A stretch of DNA of 64,000 nucleotides, taken from NCBI GenBank assembly GCA_003222895.1, contig QHXI01000094.1:1-64000 (forward strand), written 5' to 3'. This document shows, in pieces, positions 37,546 to 51,844 of the stretch (its first letter is position 1; each line of letters starts with the position of its first letter). The translations under genes were made by a program, and so were the position numbers. The notes under the pieces were generated by a model, which saw only the letters and a program-made list of their open reading frames with translations, was not told the DNA's origin and ran no database searches. The stretch comes from Acidobacteriota bacterium. Its GTDB lineage: Bacteria > Acidobacteriota > Blastocatellia > Pyrinomonadales > Pyrinomonadaceae.

Positions 37546-40500
37546 CTAAAAAGTGCGCCCTACGCTGAAGCGAAAGACCGACTTTTTCTCGTTAAAGAAG
37601 AACGGAAATCCGTTGATAACCTGATCTTTGCGAGCGTTCGGATTATAAGCATAAATAAGCCGAAAAGGCACGTTGAGAATTGGAATCTGGAAGCGAACTT
37701 CAGCGCCCATGCTGCTGCGAATGTCGTTGAATCTTGCGAACAAGCTTTGGTTAAGACGCACGACCGTATTTCGTTGCGCCTCACCGCGCAGGAAAACCTG
37801 CTGCAGCCCGAACGGGAGACCGGTGAGTGGATCGATAGGCCCGGTTCGCAGTGCTTGATCATATTCAGCGCGGGTGATCAGTCGGTTGTCGCGCGCGACC
37901 AAACCGAATGCCGGCGACAGCGCCAGGTTGCTGAAGTTTTGACAAGCAGCCAGCGTCGTCAAAGTCACCGGAGCGATGCCGCCACTGCCGGACAATCTTG
38001 GGCACGCAATGAATCCGCTCGTCGACAGGAATGGATCATCGGCGAGGAATTCTGTCGAATAAGTCTGATCCCTCTTCGAACGCAGGTTGAATGCAGAGCC
38101 TACATCGACGTAGAGTGCGGCTTGCACGGTTCGTCCCACGACCGGAATGCGATATTCAAAGTTTCCGAGGATTTGCGTGTCAGCACCGGTGGCGGTATAA
38201 ACCCGCGGCAGCGTGGCAACGTTACTGCCCGTCGAACCGGTGAACGTGCCGATGCTGGTGAGATTCGCTGGTAAACCTGGGACCACATTGGCCGTACCAG
38301 TCAGATTCGTCGCTAAGACGACGTTGCGAGAAGTGACGTAGTTGTCGAGCGGCGTGACCGGGCTAATCGAACGCACGTTGTAGCCACGAATCGTAAATTC
38401 ATCGCCGAGGAAGAAGCGCTCGTAAATCGGCACACCATCGACGAACGCCAGCGAGTTCGCATTCCGAACCTTCGCAGTCTCCGCGAAACTGCCAACCGTT
38501 CCCGCTAAAATCCGGAAGCCGAAAACTTCAGGATATTCAGAACGCTTTTTGCGAATCGGCATGAAGTGCGTGAACTCGAGCGTCGGCTCGTAACTGCGGA
38601 CATCACCGCCTAATCCGGCGAATCCCAGCGACGCCGACAGCGAAGTGCCTTTTGTCGGATCGATGTTCGCGTTGCGCGTGTCATAGACGAAAGTGCCAGT
38701 CGCGCGGCTTGTGATTATGTTCGGCTGCCGATAAATCACCGGAATAAATTGCGTTGTTTGTCCGGAAGCGTTAACCGTCGGGTCCTTCACGCTTGATTGC
38801 GCCAGCTGATAAGACAAGCCGATGCGCGAAAACTGTGTGAATGGCCGCTTGCGATAAAACTCGGACAAGGGTGCGCTGGCGAAAATCGAAGCCCCGAGCG
38901 AGTTACGCGTGAACAGGTTTTCTTCGCTCGTATTAAGGAAATCTAATAACGAGCCGCTCAAACCCTGCTGAGCCGACGTGTTTTGAGAAAGGAATGTGCC
39001 CTCGCCAAAGAACTTTTGCGAGTAAGCGAAAACGGTAAAGCCGGCCGTGATTGGGCGATTCCTGATGTAAGGTTCGGTGAACGAGAACTGGAACGATCGC
39101 TGCCGGTTGCCGGCCGCCAGATTTAACGAGAGCACTTCGCCGCGTCCGAACAGGTTATTTGTCGAGTATTCAAGTCCGAAGAATGATCCGCCGATTCCCG
39201 AAATGCCGCCATTGAAGGAAATCTGCTGGCGTCCTTTCTCAGAAACTTTGATCGTGACATCGACCAATCCTTCTTCTTCATTGGTGCGAAAGTCTGCGTC
39301 TTTGTCTTTATCGATCGGATTGAAGTAGCCGAGCTGGTTCAGGCGCGTAATCGAAAACTCGTAATAGTTCTGGTTGTAGATGTCGCCTTCATTCATCAGC
39401 ACTTCGCGACGCAGCACGTTGTCGCGCGTGAACGTGTTGCCGGTGAATTCCAGACGACGCAGCGTGAACTGTTTGCCTTCGTCGATGGTGATCACAAAAT
39501 CAGCGACGCCTTCGTCAGGCTTGGCCGGATTGTCTTTAAAGGTCGGATTGACTTCCGCGGTGTATTGAATGAAGCCTTGCGTGCCGTAAGCCTTCTTCAA
39601 ATTCTCGAACAGTCCTTTGCTCAGCGCTTCACCGTTGGCAACTTCACCTTTTTGCAGTCCAATGAAGGCCTTGATGACTTGTTCAGAGAAGATCGAGTTG
39701 CCTTCGATCTTCACGTCGCCGACGCGATAGAGCTTGCCGTCAATGATCGGCACCGTGATTCGCAGCGTGTCATCGACCGACGAAATGAATGGCAGCGGCA
39801 GGATCGGGAAACCAGTGCGACGTTTGCCCAGGCCTTCGATGCGCGGCTCGCCGTGACGGGACTGCAAATAGCCTTTCGATCGCATGTAGGTGTCGATTTG
39901 ATGCAGATCGTATTCCAGCTTCTGCCGATCGAGAATGTCCTGCTCGCGAAAGCGAGTAATCAGTCCCGCTTCCTTCACGTACTTCATGCGCGAGCGCAGC
40001 GCCCCGCTCTTGAAAACTTTGCTGCCTTCGAATTGAATCTCGGCGACGCGCACGCGCGCGCCTTCGTTGATTACGAAAGTGATGGCGCTGGAAGTTGCTG
40101 ATACTGCTTCGACGTTGGCGCTGACAATCGCATTCGGATGACCCTTGGCGGCCAGCATTTCTTTCACAACGCGCTCGGCATTCTTAACTTTTACTGGATC
40201 GAGAATCGATTCCTTGGACACGCCGACGCGCCGCTCGCGAAAGGTCTTCAGCACGTCCGACTCGGCAACGCTTTTCAATCCTTCGAATTGAATGTCGCGA
40301 ATGATTGGCAACTCTTTAACTTCAAAGACGACGCGAACGCCGCCGCGAGGTGCGTCCTCGATCGTGACGCGCGTGCCAACTCGATCAAAGAAAGCAAGGG
40401 AAAGCAGTGCTTGCAGATCGCGCTCGATTTGCGCCTGGTTGTAAGGATCGCCGGCCCGCGTCTGAATGTAATAAAGGATGTCGTCTTTCCGCAGACGGCG

Positions 40501-40635
40501 ATTGCCGATGATGTCGACTTCTTCGACCAGGCGTTGCGGGGGCTGTTGGGCGCGCACGGGCGCGGGGACTAAGCAAAAAGTTAAGCCGATCACCAGGCTG
40601 ATGGCGGCGAGCAGAACGACGCGATAAAAGTGCAT
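37546..40635 (-). CDS. bamA: Outer membrane protein assembly factor BamA
   Basis: 1029 residues from ATG 40635; the frame to 40728 lacks a start signal. A signal peptide (LLAAISLVIGLTFCLVPAPV) is followed by POTRA domains (VEEVDIIGNRRLRKDDILYY, PIIRDIQFEGLKSVAESDVL, VRVAEIQFEGSKVFKSGALR, YRVGDVKIEGNSIFSEQVIK, FTLRRLEFTGNTFTRDNVLR) and a 16-strand barrel ending FRFSVGRTF. The VRGYNVR-type motif appears as FTIRGYNVRSISP. BamA folds outer-membrane proteins. The barrel is longer than in E. coli, with extra loops. It heads the skp-fabZ-lpx genes. Confidence 0.95.
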   Translation of the reverse strand: MHFYRVVLLAAISLVIGLTFCLVPAPVRAQQPPQRLVEEVDIIGNRRLRKDDILYYIQTRAGDPYNQAQIERDLQALLSLAFFDRVGTRVTIEDAPRGGVRVVFEVKELPIIRDIQFEGLKSVAESDVLKTFRERRVGVSKESILDPVKVKNAERVVKEMLAAKGHPNAIVSANVEAVSATSSAITFVINEGARVRVAEIQFEGSKVFKSGALRSRMKYVKEAGLITRFREQDILDRQKLEYDLHQIDTYMRSKGYLQSRHGEPRIEGLGKRRTGFPILPLPFISSVDDTLRITVPIIDGKLYRVGDVKIEGNSIFSEQVIKAFIGLQKGEVANGEALSKGLFENLKKAYGTQGFIQYTAEVNPTFKDNPAKPDEGVADFVITIDEGKQFTLRRLEFTGNTFTRDNVLRREVLMNEGDIYNQNYYEFSITRLNQLGYFNPIDKDKDADFRTNEEEGLVDVTIKVSEKGRQQISFNGGISGIGGSFFGLEYSTNNLFGRGEVLSLNLAAGNRQRSFQFSFTEPYIRNRPITAGFTVFAYSQKFFGEGTFLSQNTSAQQGLSGSLLDFLNTSEENLFTRNSLGASIFASAPLSEFYRKRPFTQFSRIGLSYQLAQSSVKDPTVNASGQTTQFIPVIYRQPNIITSRATGTFVYDTRNANIDPTKGTSLSASLGFAGLGGDVRSYEPTLEFTHFMPIRKKRSEYPEVFGFRILAGTVGSFAETAKVRNANSLAFVDGVPIYERFFLGDEFTIRGYNVRSISPVTPLDNYVTSRNVVLATNLTGTANVVPGLPANLTSIGTFTGSTGSNVATLPRVYTATGADTQILGNFEYRIPVVGRTVQAALYVDVGSAFNLRSKRDQTYSTEFLADDPFLSTSGFIACPRLSGSGGIAPVTLTTLAACQNFSNLALSPAFGLVARDNRLITRAEYDQALRTGPIDPLTGLPFGLQQVFLRGEAQRNTVVRLNQSLFARFNDIRSSMGAEVRFQIPILNVPFRLIYAYNPNARKDQVINGFPFFFNEKKSVFRFSVGRTF

Positions 40636-40910
40636 AAGTGACGGTACCCTTAGAGTTTTCTCTGGGGACTGCACGCAAGTGTATGAAAGATTCAGCGTAT
40701 TAAGTAACAGAAACCCGCGTGATAGCAAGGACGCTCTGGCGAAATGTTGAGCTGTCCCATTCGTCGATCCGCGGGTGCAATCAAATTATTTCAAGTAAAG
40801 ACGCGCGATGGCTGAAAGTCTGGGGAGCACTTTGATTCGCCGCAGCCTTCACCCGTTGCCAACTTTCCGAAGCCAACAAAGGGGCGCATTATAACGGGAA
40901 AAGAAAGCGA

Positions 40911-40965: not shown

Positions 40966-43344
40966 TCATGGGGTGAGCACCAAATCGTTGACGCGCTCTT
41001 TGCCTTCCTCGTCGATCGTGATCGAGTGGAAATTCAGATCATTTCCGTCGACGAATATCTCAACCAGCGAAGCGTCGGCGAGATGGCCTTGAATCAGTGA
41101 CTCAGACAGAGGATCTTCGACGTATTTTTGCAGGGCGCGGCGCAAAGGACGCGCGCCGTAGGAACGGTCGGCGCAGGTCTTGTTTACGATCCAGCGCTTC
41201 GCGTCGTCGGTGAGACGGACAATAAAGCCATGGTTCGTCATCGTCGCGTTGATTTGATCGACCTGAAGCTGAAGCACGTCGAGCAATTCCTCATCGCCCA
41301 ACTCATCGAAGATGATTATCTCGTCGAGACGATTTATGAATTCAGGATTGAAAGTCTGGCGTACGGCGTTCATCACCATCTCTTCCAGCTTGGTGCGCGA
41401 CACATCGTTTGAACCCTGGAAACCCAGCGCGCCTTTCTTCTGAATAAATCGCGCGCCGATGTTCGACGTCATGATGATGATCGCATTCTTGAAATCGACC
41501 GTGTTGCCCAGCGCATCGGTGAGAATGCCATCTTCGAAGACTTGTAGCAGGATATTGAAAATGTCCGGGTGCGCTTTTTCAATCTCGTCAAACAACAGCA
41601 CTGAGTAAGGCGACCGCTTGATCCGTTCGGTTAATTGCCCGCCTTCTTCATGGCCCACGTAGCCCGGCGGCGATCCGATTAATTTCGAAATGGCGTGTTT
41701 CTCCATGAACTCAGACATGTCGAAGCGAATCATCGAACGCTGACTGCCGAAGAGAAATTCCGCGAGGCAGCGTGCAACCTCGGTTTTGCCGACGCCGGTT
41801 GGACCAAGAAACAGAAACGACCCGACCGGACGATGCGGGTTCTTCAATCCCGCGCGCGAACGGCGAATTGCCCGCGCCAAAGCTGAAATTGCCGGCCGCT
41901 GCGAAATCACTCGCTTGTGCAGCTCGGCTTCGATGCGCAGCAGCTTCTTTGATTCCGCTTCTTTTAGCGAAACGATCGGAATGCCCGTCCAGCGTGCGAT
42001 TACCTCTTCGATGTCCGTGCGATTTACCTCGCCCATTACGATCTGGTCTTCGTCGTCGACGATCGGGGCCTGGGCGCGGCCATACGTCGCGCGCTCCCAT
42101 TCACTGAGCGAAGCTGACAAATCGTCCAGGCTGCCTTGTTCGGCGCGAACGCGCAGCTTCACGCGCGCGCCGGCTTCGTCGATCACGTCGATCGCTTTGT
42201 CAGGCAAAAATCGATCGGGAATGTAGCGCGTCGATTGGCGCACTGCGGCTTCGAGCGCGTCGTCGGTGTAGCGCACCTGGTGAAAACTTTCGTAGCGCTC
42301 GCGCACGCCTTCGAGAATCAAAACAGCTTCGTCTTCGGATGGCGGCGGAACCTTAACCGCCTGAAAACGCCGCTCGAGCGAGCGATCCTTCTCGATTGAT
42401 TTACGAAACTCAGCAGGCGTCGTCGCGCCGATGCATTGAATCTCTCCGCGCGACAGCGCCGGCTTCAAAATATTTGCCGCGTCGAGCGATCCTTCCGCCG
42501 AACCTGCGCCAACCAGGGTGTGCAACTCGTCGATGAAAACGATGTACTGCGGATTGTCGATCAGCTCGCGCATGATTTGTTTCAAGCGCTCTTCGAACTG
42601 ACCACGGTATTTGGTCCCCGCGACAATCAAACTGATGTCCAGCGAAAGGATGCGTTTGTTTTCCAGGAAGGACGGAACCTCGTCGCGCACGATCCGCTGC
42701 GCGAGTCCTTCGACAATCGCCGTCTTGCCAACTCCCGGCTCGCCAATCAGAACCGGATTGTTCTTAGTACGACGGCAAAGAATCTGAACCACGCGCTCGA
42801 TTTCGCCATCCCGTCCAACCAACGGATCGAGTCGATCGTTCGAAGCATCCTCAGTCAGGTCGCGCGAAAATTCGAGCAGGTGCGGAATGTCTTTGCGATG
42901 ACGCGCATCGGCGCCGGTCTGTCTCGCAATCTCATCGCGCACGGCCGCGAGTCGCAAGCCACGCTCAAATAAGATCTGCGCAGCCATCGAACGCTCTTCG
43001 CGCAAGAGCCCCAGCAGCAAGTGCTCGGTGCCGATGTGTCGATGCTGAAGGCGATCGGATTCTTCATGCGAGTAATGCAGCACGCGCTTCGTCTCCGGAG
43101 CAAGCGGCAACTCGACTGAAGTGGGAATTCGTTCGCGCAAGAGCGTGCGACCTTCGATCTCTCTGCGAATTGATTCGATCGTGATTTGCGCGCGCGGGAA
43201 GAAACGGCCCGTGAGGGTTTTGTCTTCCCGCATCAGACCGAGCAGCAGGTGCTCAGGCTCAATCGCCGGCGCCCCGAACTGCGAAGCTTCATAACGAGCG
43301 AAGAAAATTACCCGGCGAGCTTTTTCTGTATAGCGTTCGAACAT
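40966..43344 (-). CDS. clpC: ClpC-type AAA+ chaperone ATPase
   Basis: 792 residues. Residues 1-145 are two Clp N repeats ([39 protein letters not shown]). NBD1 has Walker A GEPGVGKT at 201-208 and Walker [13 protein letters not shown]2 has [28 protein letters not shown] and the closing [11 protein letters not shown]. The short middle domain fits ClpC/ClpA, not ClpB. ClpC unfolds proteins for ClpP. No ClpP or McsB gene is adjacent. The C-terminus carries no obvious ClpP loop. Confidence 0.92.
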
Positions 43345-43451: not shown

Positions 43452-43952
43452 TCAGTGGGGTGAATCCGGCTCGGCGACTTTCAGCATGTAAGCCTGGTCA
43501 ACTCGGGCGGAAACTTGCGCCCCCTCGATCGGCGTAAAACCAAAATGGGTGTACAGACAAATCGCCGCTTTTAAGACGCTGATCGTTTCCAAAACGATCC
43601 TTTGATAGCCGAGCCTGCGTGCATGATCCACCGCACGTTCCAGCAATCGCCGACCCAAACCAAGCCCGCGAATTTCCGGCGTGAAATACATCTTGCGCAA
43701 CTCGCAGGTTGTGTTGTCAAGCCGAAAAAGGCCGTACGTGCCGAGCAAGTTTCCGTCGCGATCTTCAAGCACTTCGAAGATGCCACCCGAACGCAGGTAA
43801 CTCTCTTCAAGATCTTTCAAGTCTGAATCTTTTGATTCGAGATCGAAAGGTAGATTGAATTCTGAGAGAACTCCGGATACAAGCGCGACCACTCGATTGC
43901 AGTCGGCGTTGGTGGCCACGCGAATTATTACCTCGTCAGGATTTCGAATCAT
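43452..43952 (-). CDS. GNAT acetyltransferase coupled to arsR
   Basis: 166 residues from ATG 43952, which overlaps the arsR stop by one base (TAATG). The acetyl-CoA site is RKMYFTPEIRGLGLGRRLLE, with AVDHARRLGYQRIVLETISV and a closing LYTHFGFTPIEG. Coupling to an arsenic-type repressor and the divergent arsM suggest an arsenical-modifying acetyltransferase like ArsN, but the fold is widespread and this is inference. The stop is close to the end of the region preceding clpC. Confidence 0.75.
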   Translation of the reverse strand: MIRNPDEVIIRVATNADCNRVVALVSGVLSEFNLPFDLESKDSDLKDLEESYLRSGGIFEVLEDRDGNLLGTYGLFRLDNTTCELRKMYFTPEIRGLGLGRRLLERAVDHARRLGYQRIVLETISVLKAAICLYTHFGFTPIEGAQVSARVDQAYMLKVAEPDSPH

Positions 43953-44365
43953 TATGAGCCTGAGTTGCGAGCCGCGACTTTCGTTGGCCGCGGCGCGCGA
44001 TGTATCCGAACCGGCAGACGCGGCGCGCAACACAACTTGTTCAGACGCTCGCGGTCGGCTTGCATCTTCTGATCATTCGCGAGCGACGCCAGCACGCTCT
44101 TCAAAACAGTCGCTGCGTTTTCATCTGGCGGTTCCGCCAAACGGTAATGCATCCACTGTCCTTCGCGGCGCGCTGAGACGATGCCTGCGCGTCGCAGGTA
44201 TGCCAGGTGACGGCTGATCTTTGGTTGATGAGTTCCCAGGATTTCAGTGAAAAAACAAACGCACACTTCATCGGTGCGCATTAGGTTCAGCAGCCGCAAA
44301 CGGGTGTGATCGGCCAGAGCTCGAAAGAACCGCTCCATATCAAAAAGTTTCGTATTCTTACTCAT
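43952..44365 (-). CDS. arsR: ArsR-family arsenic-responsive repressor
   Basis: 137 residues. A winged helix is present: MERFFRALADHTRLRLLNLM, then QPKISRHLAYLRRAGIVSAR as the recognition helix region and REGQWMHYRLAEPP as the wing. DEVCVCFFTE carries the CVC cysteine pair that binds arsenite in the ArsR type; a further CC (KLCCAPR) is near the C-terminus. It sits divergent from arsM over a palindrome-rich promoter, which is the expected target for repression. Confidence 0.9.
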   Translation of the reverse strand: MSKNTKLFDMERFFRALADHTRLRLLNLMRTDEVCVCFFTEILGTHQPKISRHLAYLRRAGIVSARREGQWMHYRLAEPPDENAATVLKSVLASLANDQKMQADRERLNKLCCAPRLPVRIHRAPRPTKVAARNSGS

Positions 44366-44386
44366 AGCGAGATAAATCTTATCACA

Positions 44387-44456
44387 GAATATATATGCCT
44401 TGACATATATTCTCGGCCAGGCCTATGCTTGCGCATACGCTTAGGCATATATATTC
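44387..44456. promoter_or_regulatory. Divergent ars promoter with palindromic operator sites
   Basis: GAATATATATGCC (44387-44399) and its exact reverse complement (44444-44456) flank a region containing ACATATATTC and GCCTATGCTTGCGCATACGC. These could be several half-sites of an ArsR-type dimer. A -35 TTGACA at 44400-44405 with TATGCT 18 bases further (44424-44429) would drive arsM on the plus strand. The arsR start is at 44365. Confidence 0.65.
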
Positions 44457-44489
44457 GCCGCAGCGCAATTTGAAAGGAGAATCAGTTCA

Positions 44490-45425
44490 ATGTCTGCAAA
44501 TATTGAAGAAGCTGTCCGATCGAGATATGGCGCGGTGGCCGTCAGCAATTTGTCTTCGACGCATGAAGGCGTGCGCGCGGTCGCTGAAGCGTTTGGATAT
44601 TCACCGGAAGAATTGGCGTCGATTCCGGCCGAAGCCAACATGGGTTTATCCTGTGGCAATCCAACTGCCACGGCGAATTTGCGCGAAGGCGAGACCGTCG
44701 TCGATCTCGGTTCGGGCGGGGGGCTGGATGTGTTTCTCGCGGCGGCCAAAGTCGGACCGACGGGCCGCGCGATCGGCATTGACATGACGCCAGAGATGGT
44801 CGAGCTGGCGCGCCGCAACGCCGCACGCGGCGATAACGGCGAGCCGTTCACGAACGTTGAATTTCATCTGGCGACCATAGACAAGTTGCCGCTCGCCGAC
44901 AATTCAGTTGATTGCGTGATCAGCAACTGCGTGATCAATCTCGCGCCCGACAAGCCTGCGGTGTTTCGCGAAATCGCGCGCGTGTTGAAGCCGGGGGGGC
45001 GATTAGCGGTAAGCGACATCGCTCTGAAGAAATCACTTCCGCGCGAGATCAGCCAGGATATGTTGGCCTATGTTGGCTGCATCGCTGGAGCGATCCTCAT
45101 CGATGATTACAAGGGCGGACTGATCAAAGCGGGCTTTTCGAATGTCCAGGTGATTGACTCAGGCGCGGACTTGAATGCCTACGCGAAGATCGAAAATCAG
45201 TCCGGCTGCTGTTCATCGGCAGCTACGCAAATCGAAAATCAATCGGGATGTTGCGCTCCTGCTGTTAAGCCAGAAGCGGAATCGATGTCAGCGGCGGCTA
45301 GCTGCTGTGCTCCTGCGCAAATCGCAGAGGGCGATGCAAAACTGTTCGCAGACTTTACCGCGTTGCTCGCTCGCTACAATGTAAACGACCATGCGGCCAG
45401 CGTGAAGGTTTACGCGATTAAGTGA
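44490..45425 (+). CDS. arsM: Arsenite S-adenosylmethionine methyltransferase ArsM
   Basis: 311 residues. ArsM methylates trivalent arsenic to mono-, di- and trimethylarsenicals. The SAM site is [20 protein letters not shown] and the start [11 protein letters not shown] is typical. The conserved arsenic-binding cysteines appear in [18 protein letters not shown] and [10 protein letters not shown]. The tail has three short cysteine-pair units ([23 protein letters not shown]), a feature of many bacterial ArsM proteins and a possible extra metal-binding arm. AAAGGAG lies upstream of ATG 44490. Confidence 0.95.
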
Positions 45426-45885
45426 GTGCTAACTCTAATGACCAATCAGGATTCCTGACAGAGAGACAGGTAATGAATCAGCCGGCCTGGTTGCCTTTAA
45501 TATGTCTTTCAGGTCCAGTTCTAAAGTCTGTCTTTCGGCGCGTGCGTGATGAAATCAAAGATCGACTCCTTGCCTTCCTCGTACTGACAACTTCTAATTC
45601 TGACTGACTCCGATCGTTCAGGATGAATGATTAAGTCATTCGCCCCTTCTCTTGCTGTAGGTCTTACTTCTCTATCGTCATCACTTAGCTCCTTCCTGCC
45701 ATGTGGCACAGCCCTCGCAATTGCCAGCAGTGCCCTTGGAGTCTCTCCATGTGGCAGCTCTTTTCAAAGCAACACCGCAAGGCGGCAACACCTCGTCATC
45801 GTTCCCCCGATAGAGCGATCGAGCACTAGTTGCTGAGAAAGAAACTCGGGCCGGCATGCATCACGGCCGGCAGATAACAAGGATC
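45426..45885. other. Non-coding leader region before the S8 protease gene
   Basis: 460 bases without a convincing gene. It contains TGCCATGTGGCA (45697-45708), a short inverted repeat, and a second CCATGTGGCA 50 bases later. GAATGATTAAGTCATTC near 45625 is a six-base hairpin. The start codon at 45886 is preceded by AAGGA. I do not recognise a riboswitch, but the length and repeated word suggest control of the protease gene. Confidence 0.4.
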
Positions 45886-48564
45886 ATGAAGATGAAAAAA
45901 AGAAAAGCCCCCGTCACTGCATGGATCACTACTTTGGCCCTGTTGGTTTCAATGTTTGCGGGCCTGACGTTCAGTCAACGCACTTCAGCGCAGAAGACTA
46001 ATCGCGAAATTACGAGCCAGGCTGATGTTAAGTATCCGCTGCTTTCGAAGTATGCGACGGATTTAACGCTGCTGGCGCTGAACGGCAAGCTCGATAAGGC
46101 TAGCGATCGCGACGCTGATGTGGCGCGCGTAATTGCGAGTCTGTCGGCAACGTCGAAAGCTCCGGTAGTCGTCAGCGAATCCGATCTCGACCGCGACGCG
46201 ATTGCTCGCGGCGTGGCGATTAAGGTTGCGTTTGGCGATGTCCCGGACAGTTTGCGCGATAAGCGAGTCTTTCGTCTGAGTCTTGACGCGCTGGCCAAAG
46301 GCGCGCGCACCAGCGACGAATTTGCAACGCGCGTTCAATCCGTGTTCGCGGAAGCCGCGCAGGCTCAGGGCCGCGTCATCCTCTTTGTCGATCAGCTTCA
46401 TCAATATGCCGGCGCGCATGCCACGGCGATCGCCTCGGCCGCAGTCAAGGAAGCTATCGAAGCAAATCATCTTCGAATCATCGGCGGCACTTCGCCGGAA
46501 GCTTACGCCAGCTACATCGCTTCGGATGAAAACGTGGCAAAGCTGTTCGAGTCGATCTCGATCGATCGAACGTTGGATAGCGCGTCAGAGACCGCAGCGA
46601 AGGGCAAAGACAAACGTCACAGCCCGATCAACGAAGAATTCGAAGGCGAAAAAATTTCAAGCGACATGCGCGAGTTGATGCGGAGCGCCGGCCGGAACGG
46701 ACACGTGACGGCGATCCTGCAAGTTAACGACGTCAACAGCCATGAAGTTCGTTCCTTGCTGGCTCGCAATGGCGTGTTGATAAGCGACAGCCTGGCCAGG
46801 CTTGGCACGATGAAAGTTGATCTGCCGGTTCAGGCTATCGAAGCGCTGGCGAAGAGCAATTCAATGAACTTCATTTCACCTGATGCCAGGATGCTGAATC
46901 TTGATTATGGTCACGTCGTAAAAACGACCGGAACCGATCAGGTCCGCAACCCGCAAAGCGGATCGCTGCTGGGCAATCTTTTGGGCAGCACCACGATTGA
47001 CGGCACGGGCATTGGCATCGCGGTGCTCGATTCAGGTGTGGATACCAGTCACGCGGCCTTCACGGGCAAAGGTATTCTTGGCACCGGCTACCGCATTGTG
47101 TTCAATAAGGACTTCACCGCTGAAAATAACACAAGCACTGACCCTTATGGACACGGCACGCATGTGTCCTCATCCGCCGCCGGCATAAGTACGACCAATG
47201 GCGATACCTATCAGGGAATTGCTCCCGGCGCCAGCGTTATCAATCTTAAAGTCCTTGATAGGACTGGCGTCGGGACAATCTCAAGCTTGTTGGCCGCAAT
47301 GAACTGGATCATCAGTCCCGTTGATCCAACCAAGGCGGTCAGCTCCACCAACCCGCTGAACAAAGACAAGTACAGCATTCGCATCGTAAACATGAGTCTC
47401 GGCGCGCCGGCTATCAATTCTTACAAGAACGACCCGGTGTGTCGCGCGGCGCGCGCCCTGGTTGACGCAGGATTGGTTGTCGTCGCTGCTGCCGGTAACA
47501 ACGGCAAAGATGCGAACGGCAATAAGATTTATGGACAGATCCATTCGCCCGGTAACGAGCCTTCCGTGATCACCGTCGGCGCTGCCAACACCTTCGGCAC
47601 CGACGCGCGCGCGGACGATGGCGTAGCAACTTACAGCTCGCGCGGCCCGACGCGCAGCTATTACACTGACGCGAGCGGCGTGAAGCACTACGACGATCTG
47701 CTCAAGCCCGATCTTATTGCGCCGGGCAACAAGCTCATCTATGCGGAAGCCGATTCGAACGCCGGCCCGAATCTTCTGGTCACTCAGAATCCGCAATTGG
47801 ATTCGGGCATCACCGACAACAACAACAGGCGCCTGATGTATCTGAGCGGTACGTCAATGGCTACTCCTATCGTGTCCGGCGCCGCGGCATTAATGCTGCA
47901 AGTCAATCCCAAGCTAACGCCGAACATGATCAAGATGGCCTTGATGTACACGTCCGATCCTCTGCCTAACTTCAACATGCTGGAGCAAGGCACGGGTGAA
48001 CTGAACGTCGAAGGCGCGGCCCGGATGGCCAAACTGATCCGCACCGATTTGTCGTCGAGCACCGCGCAAGACAGTGCGATGCTGACCACCAGCACACCGC
48101 CGGATCCACACACCACGGTGGCGGGACAGACGTTCACATGGTCGCAGGGCATCATCCTGAAGCATTGGTATGCCACCGGGGTTTCGCTGGAGACGAAGTA
48201 CCAAACCTACTATGCGCAGGGTGTCGTCCTCGGGGACGGAGTCGTGCTTGGTAATGGCGTAGTGCTCGGCGATGGCGTGGTCCTCGGCGATGGCGTCGTA
48301 CTCGGCGATGGCGTCGTACTCGGCGACAGCATCTTCACCAGCTCAGGCGTCGTCCTGGGTGACGGCACGATCTTCTGTAGCGGCGTCGTGCTCGGCGATG
48401 GCGTGGTTCTGGGCGATGGTGTTGTGCTTGGTGATGGCGTCGTCCTCGGTGATGGCGTTGTCCTGGGTGACGGTGTCGTGCTGGGCGATGCCACGGTCCA
48501 AGCCATGTCTACGAAGGCATTACTCAATGGTGATGCTGGACCGGCGATGCCGGCCCAGCCATAA
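45886..48564 (+). CDS. Secreted S8 subtilisin-like protease with an inactive ClpB-like AAA+ domain and hexapeptide repeats
   Basis: 892 residues from ATG 45886, supported by AAGGA. Signal peptide 13-35 (WITTLALLVSMFAGLTFS). Residues about 53-228 align without gaps of note to the first ATPase domain of ClpB: LSKYATDLTLLALNGKLD, GDVPDSLRDKRVFRLSLDAL, QGRVILFVDQLHQ and IIGGTSPEAYASYI. The Walker A GEPGVGKT has become SESDLDRD, the Walker B Glu is Gln and the arginine finger is gone. Residues 270-340 look like an I9-type prodomain. The S8 domain has Asp382, His423, Asn538 and Ser657 (SGTSMATP). Residues 779-869 are VVLGDG repeats. Exported; substrate unknown. A peptidase is certain, the role of the AAA+ part is open. 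Confidence 0.85.
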   Translation: MKMKKRKAPVTAWITTLALLVSMFAGLTFSQRTSAQKTNREITSQADVKYPLLSKYATDLTLLALNGKLDKASDRDADVARVIASLSATSKAPVVVSESDLDRDAIARGVAIKVAFGDVPDSLRDKRVFRLSLDALAKGARTSDEFATRVQSVFAEAAQAQGRVILFVDQLHQYAGAHATAIASAAVKEAIEANHLRIIGGTSPEAYASYIASDENVAKLFESISIDRTLDSASETAAKGKDKRHSPINEEFEGEKISSDMRELMRSAGRNGHVTAILQVNDVNSHEVRSLLARNGVLISDSLARLGTMKVDLPVQAIEALAKSNSMNFISPDARMLNLDYGHVVKTTGTDQVRNPQSGSLLGNLLGSTTIDGTGIGIAVLDSGVDTSHAAFTGKGILGTGYRIVFNKDFTAENNTSTDPYGHGTHVSSSAAGISTTNGDTYQGIAPGASVINLKVLDRTGVGTISSLLAAMNWIISPVDPTKAVSSTNPLNKDKYSIRIVNMSLGAPAINSYKNDPVCRAARALVDAGLVVVAAAGNNGKDANGNKIYGQIHSPGNEPSVITVGAANTFGTDARADDGVATYSSRGPTRSYYTDASGVKHYDDLLKPDLIAPGNKLIYAEADSNAGPNLLVTQNPQLDSGITDNNNRRLMYLSGTSMATPIVSGAAALMLQVNPKLTPNMIKMALMYTSDPLPNFNMLEQGTGELNVEGAARMAKLIRTDLSSSTAQDSAMLTTSTPPDPHTTVAGQTFTWSQGIILKHWYATGVSLETKYQTYYAQGVVLGDGVVLGNGVVLGDGVVLGDGVVLGDGVVLGDSIFTSSGVVLGDGTIFCSGVVLGDGVVLGDGVVLGDGVVLGDGVVLGDGVVLGDATVQAMSTKALLNGDAGPAMPAQP
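48220..48492 (+). repeat. Tandem six-residue (VVLGDG) repeat encoded by 18-base units
   Basis: About a dozen GVVLGDG units interrupted by DSIFTSS and TIFCSS-like segments. The DNA units differ at third positions, so selection acts on the protein. The spacing fits a left-handed beta-helix or a sticky wall-type strand. The antisense frame reads TTPSPR repeats and is not a gene. Confidence 0.8.
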
Positions 48565-48656: not shown

Positions 48657-49553
48657 ATGGCAGTTACGATGATGCGGCAGGAATTTACAGCGAATCTGAA
48701 TAATTTCGCTGACTCTTCGGAATCATGCGCGATTCGTGAACTGGTTCGTGCCGATGAAGAAGAAGTACTTGAATTTCTTTCGGCGCGGCCAGTTCACACA
48801 GTATTCATGGCCGGTTTGATTCGCGACAACAGCCTGGTCAGCCCGCAGAACCGCGGCTCGTTTTACGGCTCTCGAACTCGATCGGGTCAATTAGAAGGCG
48901 TCGCACTAATCGGTCACGCGACCATGATCGAGGCGCATACGGAAGATTCTCTGGCCGGCTTTGCCCAAGTGGCTCGCAACTGTCATAACGCACATCTGAT
49001 TCGGGGCGAGCAGTCATCGATCCAAATCTTCTGGAGTCACTTTGCCGGCGCCGGTCGCGAGCCGCGCTTGATTTGTCGCGAGCACTTGTTCGAACTCAAA
49101 GAAGTCCCCGCGGAAGTTGACGGCTCAATTTACTTGCGGCCGGCGACAATCGCAGACATCGACAAAGTCATGGCCGTGAATTCTTCGATGGCGTTTGAAG
49201 AAGGCGGCATTAGCCCGCTGCGACGCGACCCCGGCGGTTTTAGATCCCGCACTGCGCGACGCATCGAGAAGCGCCGCGTCTGGGTAATGTTTGACGAGAA
49301 TCGTCTGGTTTTCAAGACAGACGTCGTCAGCGAGACCCCGGATGTGACTTATCTCGAAGGCGTCTATGTTCATCCTGAAGAGCGGCGCAAGGGCCATGGT
49401 TTACGTTGCCTGACGAAATTGTCGTCAATATTAATGGGTCGTTCGCGCTCGATCTGTCTGACCGTCAACGAGAGTAACAAGAGCGCAATCGCGCTTTACA
49501 CCAAAGTGGGCTTTCAACTGCACAGCGATTACGAAACGATCTACTTACGTTAA
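48657..49553 (+). CDS. GNAT acetyltransferase with DUF4081-like N-terminus
   Basis: 298 residues. AGGAG lies eight bases before ATG 48657. The N-terminal half (IRELVRADEEEVLEFLSARP, VFMAGLIRDNSL) resembles the DUF4081 part of two-domain GNATs. The C-terminal half has the acetyl-CoA site YLEGVYVHPEERRKGHGLRC and a closing SAIALYTKVGFQLHSDYETI. Substrate unknown. It follows the protease gene by about 90 bases and precedes the GGDEF-EAL gene by 20. Confidence 0.8.
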   Translation: MAVTMMRQEFTANLNNFADSSESCAIRELVRADEEEVLEFLSARPVHTVFMAGLIRDNSLVSPQNRGSFYGSRTRSGQLEGVALIGHATMIEAHTEDSLAGFAQVARNCHNAHLIRGEQSSIQIFWSHFAGAGREPRLICREHLFELKEVPAEVDGSIYLRPATIADIDKVMAVNSSMAFEEGGISPLRRDPGGFRSRTARRIEKRRVWVMFDENRLVFKTDVVSETPDVTYLEGVYVHPEERRKGHGLRCLTKLSSILMGRSRSICLTVNESNKSAIALYTKVGFQLHSDYETIYLR

Positions 49554-49573: not shown

Positions 49574-51844
49574 GTGGAAGCAATAGCTCAACTACCTAAT
49601 CGCTCTCGAGCGTTCGACGCCTACCGCTGGCTGATCGTTATCGCCGGGGGCTTTGCGTTCCTTGCTTCATCGAGATGGCTGGCCGCGCCGCAGTTCGATT
49701 GGCGTTTCATCATCCTGGCTTCCGTGATGATGTTGGTCAGCTCGCGATTCTCAGTCCAAATCCCGCGGGTCAACACCAACATTACGATCTCAGATGCTTT
49801 CATTTTTCTGGTGCTGTTGTTGTACGGCGGTGTGGCGGGAATTCTCCTGGCCGGAATGGAAGGATTGTTTTCTGGCCTGCGGATCAGCAAGCGGCCGTTA
49901 ACCGTGGCGTTCAATTCAGCGATGATGCTCGCCTCGACTTCGCTCACGGTCATGGTGGTGCGATTGTTTTTTGGATCGATTGACAATTTGCGCTTCCAGG
50001 ACTTGTCGCATTTTGGCGTTGCCGTTGGCACGATGGCGCTGGTTCAGTATTTCTCGAACACAGGGATCAGCGCGATCGGTCTGGCGTGCAAGCAAGGCGA
50101 ATCGATCTGGCGAACGTGGCAGACGCATTACCTCTGGACCTCGATCACTTATTTGTCGGGCGCGTTGCTGGCTGCCCTCACGGCGAATTCAATCGAACGG
50201 GTTGGTCTGACGATCGTTCTGGTCGGAGCGCCTGTCATCGGCATCGTTTACTTCACCTATCACAAATATCTGAACGAGATTAAGACGACGTCGGCGACGG
50301 CCGAACAGGCCGAGCGTGAGCGCGCCGAAGCTGAACGCGCGCGCGCCGAAGCCGAGCGCGAACGCGCCGAACAAGCCGAGCGTCACGTCGAAGAATTGAA
50401 TCGTCACATCGCTGAGCAGGAACGCATCAGCTCGCAGTTGCAGGAGAGCAAGGATCACTTTCGTCACGCGGCTTTCCACGACGCGCTGACGAACCTGCCG
50501 AATCGCGCATTACTGACTGAGAATTTGAAGTTCGTGATCGAACGAGCGAAGAACCATGAAGACTATCAGTTCGCGGTGCTCTTCCTCGATCTCGATCGAT
50601 TTAAGAACGTGAACGACAGTCTGGGTCACTCGATCGGCGATCAATTGCTGATTGCGATGGCGCGGCGTCTGGAAAGCTGCATTCGCGACGTCGATATGGT
50701 TGCCCGTCTTGGCGGTGACGAGTTTGCGATTCTGCTCGACGGCATCGCGAGCGGCGGTGACGCGACGAACATGGCCCGACGCATTCAAGAGAAGCTGGCT
50801 TCGCCGTTCAATCTCAGCGGTCATGAAGTTTTCACGACGACCAGCATCGGTATCGCGCTCAGCTCAACCGGATACGATCATCCCGAGAACATGCTGCGCG
50901 ACGCAGACACCGCGATGTATCGTGCGAAGGCCCAGGGCAAAGCGTGCTACGAAGTGTTCGACAAAGGAATGCATACTCACGCCGTGTACGTGCTGCAAAT
51001 GGAGAACGATTTGCGGCGCGCGCTCGAGCGCGAAGAGTTCCGTGTCTACTATCAGCCGATCGTTACCCTCGACAATGGGCATCTCGCGGGGTTTGAAGCG
51101 TTGATTCGCTGGCAGCACCCCGACCGCGGTTTTATCAATCCATCAGATTTCATTCCGCTAGCTGAAGATACCGGACTGATCGTTCCCATCGGTCAATGGA
51201 TTTTAAAGCGCGCCTGTCAGCAACTTGCCAAATGGCAGTGGCAATCGCACGCGAATCGCAACCTGTTCATGAGCGTGAATCTTTCGAGCAAACAAATCTC
51301 GCAACCGGATCTGGTCGATGTGATTCGCGAGACGCTGGAAGAAACGAACGTCGACGCAAAGCACCTCAAACTCGAAATTACTGAAAGCGCCGTAATGGAC
51401 AATGCTGAGATGGCCGTGCGTTTGTTGAAGCGATTGAAGGCGCTGGGCGTCAGCCTGAGCATCGATGACTTTGGCACCGGCTATTCGTCGCTCGGCTATC
51501 TGCATCGCTTTCCGGTCGACACTTTGAAGATTGATCGATCATTTGTCGGTCGCATCGGCGAACAGTCCGAGAACGCCGAGATCGTGCGCACGATCGTTTC
51601 ACTGGCTGAGAATATGGGAATGGATGTGGTGGCTGAAGGCGTCGAGACGCTGAATCAACTTTCCCATCTGCGCGGTTTGAAATGTCAGTATGGTCAGGGT
51701 TATCTGTTCTCGCGCCCCGTCGATGCCGATTCGGTTACTGCCTGGATTTCACGCAAGCCGCATTGGCAAGCCGATCTGTTCCCGGCGGCAAAAGAATTGT
51801 TCGTAACCGCGAAGCCACCTGTGATGCAATTGGTATCGGCGTAG
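49574..51844 (+). CDS. Membrane-bound GGDEF-EAL cyclic-di-GMP enzyme
   Basis: 756 residues, GTG start at 49574. Residues 15-230 have about six membrane helices of no recognised sensor class. A coiled coil rich in Ala/Glu/Arg (240-290, AEAERARAEAERERAEQAER) links to GGDEF at 380-384, with the inhibitory site RDVD at 371-374. EAL is at 508-510 (FEALIRWQHPDRG), followed by ESAVMDNAE, DDFGTGYSSLGYL and AEGVETLNQL. Both active sites look intact. It can make or break c-di-GMP, balance unknown, and could control motility or attachment. Confidence 0.92.
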   Translation: MEAIAQLPNRSRAFDAYRWLIVIAGGFAFLASSRWLAAPQFDWRFIILASVMMLVSSRFSVQIPRVNTNITISDAFIFLVLLLYGGVAGILLAGMEGLFSGLRISKRPLTVAFNSAMMLASTSLTVMVVRLFFGSIDNLRFQDLSHFGVAVGTMALVQYFSNTGISAIGLACKQGESIWRTWQTHYLWTSITYLSGALLAALTANSIERVGLTIVLVGAPVIGIVYFTYHKYLNEIKTTSATAEQAERERAEAERARAEAERERAEQAERHVEELNRHIAEQERISSQLQESKDHFRHAAFHDALTNLPNRALLTENLKFVIERAKNHEDYQFAVLFLDLDRFKNVNDSLGHSIGDQLLIAMARRLESCIRDVDMVARLGGDEFAILLDGIASGGDATNMARRIQEKLASPFNLSGHEVFTTTSIGIALSSTGYDHPENMLRDADTAMYRAKAQGKACYEVFDKGMHTHAVYVLQMENDLRRALEREEFRVYYQPIVTLDNGHLAGFEALIRWQHPDRGFINPSDFIPLAEDTGLIVPIGQWILKRACQQLAKWQWQSHANRNLFMSVNLSSKQISQPDLVDVIRETLEETNVDAKHLKLEITESAVMDNAEMAVRLLKRLKALGVSLSIDDFGTGYSSLGYLHRFPVDTLKIDRSFVGRIGEQSENAEIVRTIVSLAENMGMDVVAEGVETLNQLSHLRGLKCQYGQGYLFSRPVDADSVTAWISRKPHWQADLFPAAKELFVTAKPPVMQLVSA

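Follow-up and report, generated by a model that had tools for sequence, protein, structure and literature searches.

A putatively exported S8 subtilase of the Pyrinomonadaceae that carries a degenerate ClpB NBD1 domain

The question raised by this locus is why a subtilase with a predicted signal peptide carries the remains of a ClpB-type ATPase ahead of its protease domain. In the window, i.e., the whole stretch of 64,000 nucleotides analyzed here, the longest ORF of the gene runs from 45856 to 48564 on the plus strand and encodes 902 aa. A start at 45886 or 45892 appears likelier than one at 45856 because AAGG stands upstream, and from either of these the protein would begin with a typical signal peptide ending TSA/Q. 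A similar N-terminus was found ahead of the pseudo-AAA domain in the aligned relatives. Position 45886 corresponds to M11 of the longest ORF, and the residue numbering of an earlier note on this DNA fits that start.

Behind its signal peptide the protein has a ClpB-like domain, then a propeptide-like region, the S8 subtilase and, last, hexapeptide repeats (Table 1). The pseudo-AAA domain occupies about residues 57-238 of the 902-aa ORF and is followed by a short, variable linker and the propeptide-like region; the S8 catalytic domain comprises residues 383-703. Similar six-residue repeats (DGVLVSD and like) end nearly all members of the family, fused or unfused, and were read as a hexapeptide left-handed helix.

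Table 1. Features of the fused-protein gene and its conserved downstream neighbours (window coordinates).
Feature	Coordinates	Strand	Basis or remark
Fused-protein gene	45886..48564	+	ORF reading; architecture conserved in relatives
Putative signal peptide, MKMKKRK...LALLVSMFAGLTF...RTSA/Q	45886..45990	+	Read from sequence
Pseudo-AAA domain (ClpB NBD1 large subdomain, nucleotide motifs lost)	46024..46569	+	
Walker A position, now SESDLDRD	46174..46197	+	
Walker B position, ILFVDQ, catalytic Glu replaced by Gln	46378..46395	+	
Arginine finger ERRF position, now AKLF	46537..46548	+	
Propeptide-like region, common to AAA-less S8 relatives	46618..46953	+	Residues about 255-366
S8 subtilase catalytic domain, triad D392/H433/S667	47002..47964	+	Pfam PF00082, E=2.3e-47
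C-terminal GVVLGD hexapeptide repeats, 18-nt tandem array	48223..48490	+	Pfam Hexapep, E=1.4e-14
GNAT acetyltransferase gene, conserved downstream	48657..49553	+	
Membrane GGDEF-EAL protein gene, conserved downstream	49574..51844	+	

The earlier note had claimed that the N-terminal domain follows ClpB NBD1 nearly end to end, and this was borne out by phmmer searches of PDB, by NCBIfam and by Foldseek. Residues 53-240 matched the NBD1 of Plasmodium ClpB1 (2p65, E=8.6e-32) and T. thermophilus ClpB (4hse, E=8e-31; 1qvr, E=3.2e-30) in alignments that covered about 185 residues, end to end. With the whole protein, the ClpB model TIGR03346 matched at E=8.9e-36 over model positions 139-335 of 853, and the domain was 41% identical to the ClpB of the same genome. 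An AlphaFold2 prediction of the domain, based on an alignment of 13 relatives, reached a pLDDT of 85 and a pTM of 0.83, and its best PDB match by Foldseek was 1jbk, the NBD1 of E. coli ClpB (E=2.6e-16, TM 0.84, rmsd 1.8 Å). In a viral structure library the predicted domain matched Clp and other AAA or P-loop proteins.

The ClpB match ends where the lid subdomain would start, so that only the AAA+ large subdomain is present. The note's reading needs the qualification that the whole NBD1 is not there, and residues 57-238 are slightly wider than the extent it had proposed. The lid, M-domain and NBD2 are absent from the fused protein, the match to the ClpB model being limited as above. The Pfam AAA score remained below threshold (E=0.14 on the full protein, 0.018 on the domain alone), which indicates that family scans can miss such domains. 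Sequence comparison and the predicted model together confirm the pseudo-AAA domain as a ClpB NBD1 large subdomain, and, with dozens of homologues, they also confirm that this degenerate fold is fused to a subtilase, whose export through Sec is inferred.

The motifs quoted in the note lie in frame at the places it gave, and the lost motifs were correctly identified as SESDLDRD, DQ and AKLF; the pore-loop Tyr is gone as well. These positions were followed in a census of 49 fused rows and 16 Clp rows. The Walker A Lys, the second arginine finger and the Walker B Asp/Glu were invariant in the Clp rows. Among the fused rows the Walker A Lys was kept in three, each time followed by Ala and not by Thr/Ser (GETGVGKAA, GETPYGKAS), the second arginine finger was likewise kept in three, and the pore-loop Tyr was present in none (0/49 vs 14/16 Clp rows). 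The arginine finger position was variable, mostly Leu/Ala/Lys. At Walker B, Asp was found in 32/49 and Glu in 20/49 fused rows. The loss of catalytic residues, which the note had proposed to check in homologues, runs through the family, with the qualification that the Walker B Glu is missing from only about 60% of members.

Conservation among the fused rows was highest in columns of core Leu, Phe, Ala, Gly and Pro, and Cys averaged 0.24 per domain vs 1.25 in Clp rows. Within the genus, dN/dS of the pseudo-AAA domain was about 0.08-0.2, a rough figure because dS is near saturation, suggesting that selection acts on its protein sequence. As judged from sequence and predicted fold, the motor is dead throughout the fused family and the fold is kept. 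Members grade from L077 and L079, which have relic P-loops, to L081, L082 and L085, whose domains are very diverged, and AAA-less relatives exist besides; in this series the loss of a motor and the gain of another use by an ATPase fold can be traced and tested.

The protein is identified as an S8 subtilase by the match to Pfam PF00082 and by the Asp/His/Ser triad, which is intact in the window protein and invariant in alignment A3; proteolytic activity is inferred. The propeptide-like region is conserved and placed where an inhibitory propeptide is expected, and one pro-subtilisin E chain (3whi) aligns from within it. It had no match of its own to known propeptides in Pfam or PDB profile searches. 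S8 relatives with the same region and without the AAA domain exist, showing that the pseudo-AAA domain is not generally required for folding in this protease family. The full-length structure prediction was poor (pLDDT 53, pTM 0.36) and contacts between domains could not be read from it, so any such contact is inferred.

The pairing with S8, for which the note had proposed to look in other genomes, was found in dozens of homologues. More than 30 proteins in 60 relatives align to both the pseudo-AAA domain and the propeptide-like region. Named relatives are metagenome assemblies of Acidobacteriota, Blastocatellia and Pyrinomonadaceae. Genomes were scanned with a propeptide-only alignment, which avoids ClpB matches. 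At class level (162 genomes), the fusion was counted by hand in about 73 of the 119 Pyrinomonadaceae genomes and in none of the 43 genomes of other families, both counts being made among the matches listed, to about E=2e-62. In a phylum sample of 396 genomes, 23 carried the fusion at E<=1e-66, all of them from the same family, of which several other genomes showed none. Many genomes have two fused copies, including that of the window (C163, an 844-aa open frame). A second fused paralogue lineage was observed in the genus, with L052 (from the window's own genome, C163), L048, L051, L053, L056 and L057. Viral contigs gave no relative, and a plasmid search gave no S8 fusion among the matches listed, the best being ClpB or TssH and one unannotated.

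A branch with 100/100 support separated all 49 fused domains from ClpB, ClpC and a third Clp type. This fully supported split fits a single capture, with the rooting within the tree not shown. AAA-less S8 proteins with the same propeptide-like region occur in Pyrinomonadaceae and in another family of the class. In one of these (L083), a signal-like N-terminus is directly followed by the propeptide-like region, which suggests this junction as the probable point of insertion of the pseudo-AAA module, behind the signal peptide and ahead of the propeptide. Fused and unfused proteins were interleaved in the S8 tree, parts of which are unresolved; the best tree required 10 changes, only two of them forced by well-supported branches. 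Domain losses or exchanges between paralogues are therefore likely, not proven. In L065 (2459-8308), L056 (640-8899) and L068 (5656-9161), a fused S8 gene is found close to an unfused or to another fused one, and exchange within such pairs may contribute to gain and loss of the domain.

The neighbourhood was compared in the 32 fused loci for which 1.3 kb or more of downstream sequence was available. The GNAT gene followed on the same strand in 21 loci, with S8-GNAT gaps of mostly 34-250 nt, and a GGDEF-EAL match followed soon downstream, also on the same strand, in 19, some of these matches being weak (22-45%). Both recur across genera, and their recurrence after the fused gene is a new observation. 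The second-paralogue group (L048, L051-L053, L057) lacked both, where enough downstream sequence was available. The AAA-less L083 and L084 also had a GGDEF match downstream, so the S8-GGDEF link may be older than the fusion. The conserved neighbours offer a lead to the pathway of the fused protein. A wider proposal is speculative and as a whole unlikely: a cytosolic protein-remodelling motor domain, captured once and exported, would have given up its use of ATP and would now help a secreted protease to fold or stay latent, with production of that protease linked to the downstream c-di-GMP membrane enzyme and acetyltransferase.

On the other side, a ClpC-like ATPase gene with intact Walker motifs (40966-43344, minus strand) is divergent from the fused gene and also adjoins it in L037, L041 and L043. 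An origin of the fused domain from this gene is unlikely because identity is 27-28%, against 41% to ClpB. Between them (43952-45425), an ArsR-type regulator is divergent from an ArsM-looking methyltransferase with a Cys-rich tail (NQSGCC repeats), a pair also seen near the fused gene in L038, and an Omp85 family protein with five POTRA domains is encoded at 37546-40728 on the minus strand.

What the domain does has to be inferred, and the roles suggested in the note (scaffold, substrate-binding arm or intramolecular chaperone) stand as proposals. Sequence, fold prediction and comparison point to a large AAA+ subdomain copied from ClpB NBD1 and placed between signal peptide and propeptide in an ancestor of one acidobacterial family, which then lost the residues for nucleotide binding, hydrolysis and threading with its fold kept. 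The reading we lean towards, without granting it quite an even chance, is that this subdomain now would be a nucleotide-free structural and protein-binding module of the pro-region. It would be exported with the zymogen (Sec export inferred) ahead of the inhibitory propeptide, would tune folding, latency or placement of the protease, a role that is inferred, and would come off together with the propeptide on maturation of the protease, a step that is also inferred. The position favours this role: in the aligned fused loci the domain immediately follows the signal peptide and precedes the propeptide-like region, so subtilisin-type maturation would release both. Against it, contact of the domain with propeptide or protease is only inferred, the propeptide-like region lacks a profile match to known propeptides, and some S8 relatives dispense with the domain. 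Because the maturation site is undetermined, the domain may instead stay on the mature extracellular protease as an arm that presents substrates or docks the enzyme to a partner or surface. That the domain is folded, varies on its surface and is subject to purifying selection would suit such an arm, and accessory domains are present on other S8 subtilases; however, ordinary subtilisin processing would remove a domain N-terminal to the propeptide-like region, and the Tyr with which the ClpB pore loop grips substrates is lost in 49/49. We consider this arm possible, though not likely.

It is more doubtful that the domain is merely a tolerated passenger of a chance fusion, its fold kept only since unfolded exported protein would be degraded. 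It does diverge much faster than the protease (e.g., 17% identity for the AAA part of L081 vs 54% for S8), and the absence of the fusion from several family genomes and the interleaving in the S8 tree agree with a relic, but retention in so many family genomes among the matches listed, often in two copies, and a dN/dS well below 1, even with dS near saturation, do not. The former P-loop is Asp/Glu-rich in many members (e.g., SESDLDRD, DDNGENQS), as might be expected if the old ATP pocket now bound a metal, peptide or other small molecule and switched the protease; such a sensor is improbable, since no replacement motif is conserved there and the residues differ by lineage. A working ATPase, active either in the cytoplasm ahead of export or in some compartment that contains ATP, could call only on the three rows with a Walker A Lys and deserves hardly any credence, given the Ala after that Lys, the missing lid subdomain, the lost arginine fingers and the signal peptide ahead of the domain. 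The pro-region module thus remains our preferred, tentative reading.

Compared with known systems, the domain resembles the NBD1 of ClpB/Hsp104 (1JBK, 2P65, 4HSE) both in its sequence (E~1e-31) and in the fold predicted for it (TM 0.84), so that the two refuting conditions set by the note, no profile similarity and a fold unlike AAA+, both turned out in favour of its claim, and it also has the N-terminal YATDLT...GKL segment. It differs from ClpB/Hsp104 in being without lid, M-domain, NBD2, Walker A, arginine fingers and pore-loop Tyr, and in lying behind a signal peptide and joined to a protease. By its sequence, the fused protein fails the defining tests of a ClpB/Hsp100 disaggregase except homology. 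It shares with S8 subtilases (3AFG, subtilisin E) a catalytic domain with an intact triad, and differs from them in the pseudo-AAA domain ahead of the pro-region and the long C-terminal hexapeptide repeat.

The anti-phage system IetAS combines an AAA ATPase and an S8 protease encoded by separate genes, whereas here a single, putatively exported protein carries a dead AAA domain. The fused protein has weak S8 similarity to IetS (E=1.9e-7), and the pseudo-AAA domain alone matched neither IetA nor any PADLOC model at E<=1; beyond the IetS similarity nothing supports an anti-phage reading. The SMXL/D53 proteins of plants are ClpB-related and reused for something other than disaggregation. Unlike the fused protein they are nuclear regulators, unexported and without a protease; the family is treated in PMC12184505. 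LON-AAA-S16 proteases join an AAA+ module and a serine protease in one chain (PMC2605481). They differ from the fused protein in being cytosolic, with a live ATPase and a different protease fold. In the passages of that survey that were consulted, AAA is paired with S16 and nowhere with S8 (PMC2605481). Open papers yielded no description of a ClpB-S8 fusion, and the earlier note knew of none; most subscription papers were outside this coverage.

Descriptions of dead AAA+ domains outside the cytosol are rare, and LAP1/LULL1 were the clear case found. These are nucleotide-free AAA+-like torsin cofactors of the ER/perinuclear space without Walker A and C-terminal lid (PMC4358337). In LAP1 an arginine finger is conserved and acts on torsin. 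The fused domain is similarly an AAA+ fold without Walker A and lid and, if export is rightly inferred, outside the cytosol. It differs in its lost arginine fingers, its place on a protease and its separate origin. No partner AAA+ ATPase outside the cytoplasm is known for it. LAP1 is its nearest parallel in kind, and what was once a motor fold seems to have become a plain structural or regulatory module that acts outside the cytoplasm.
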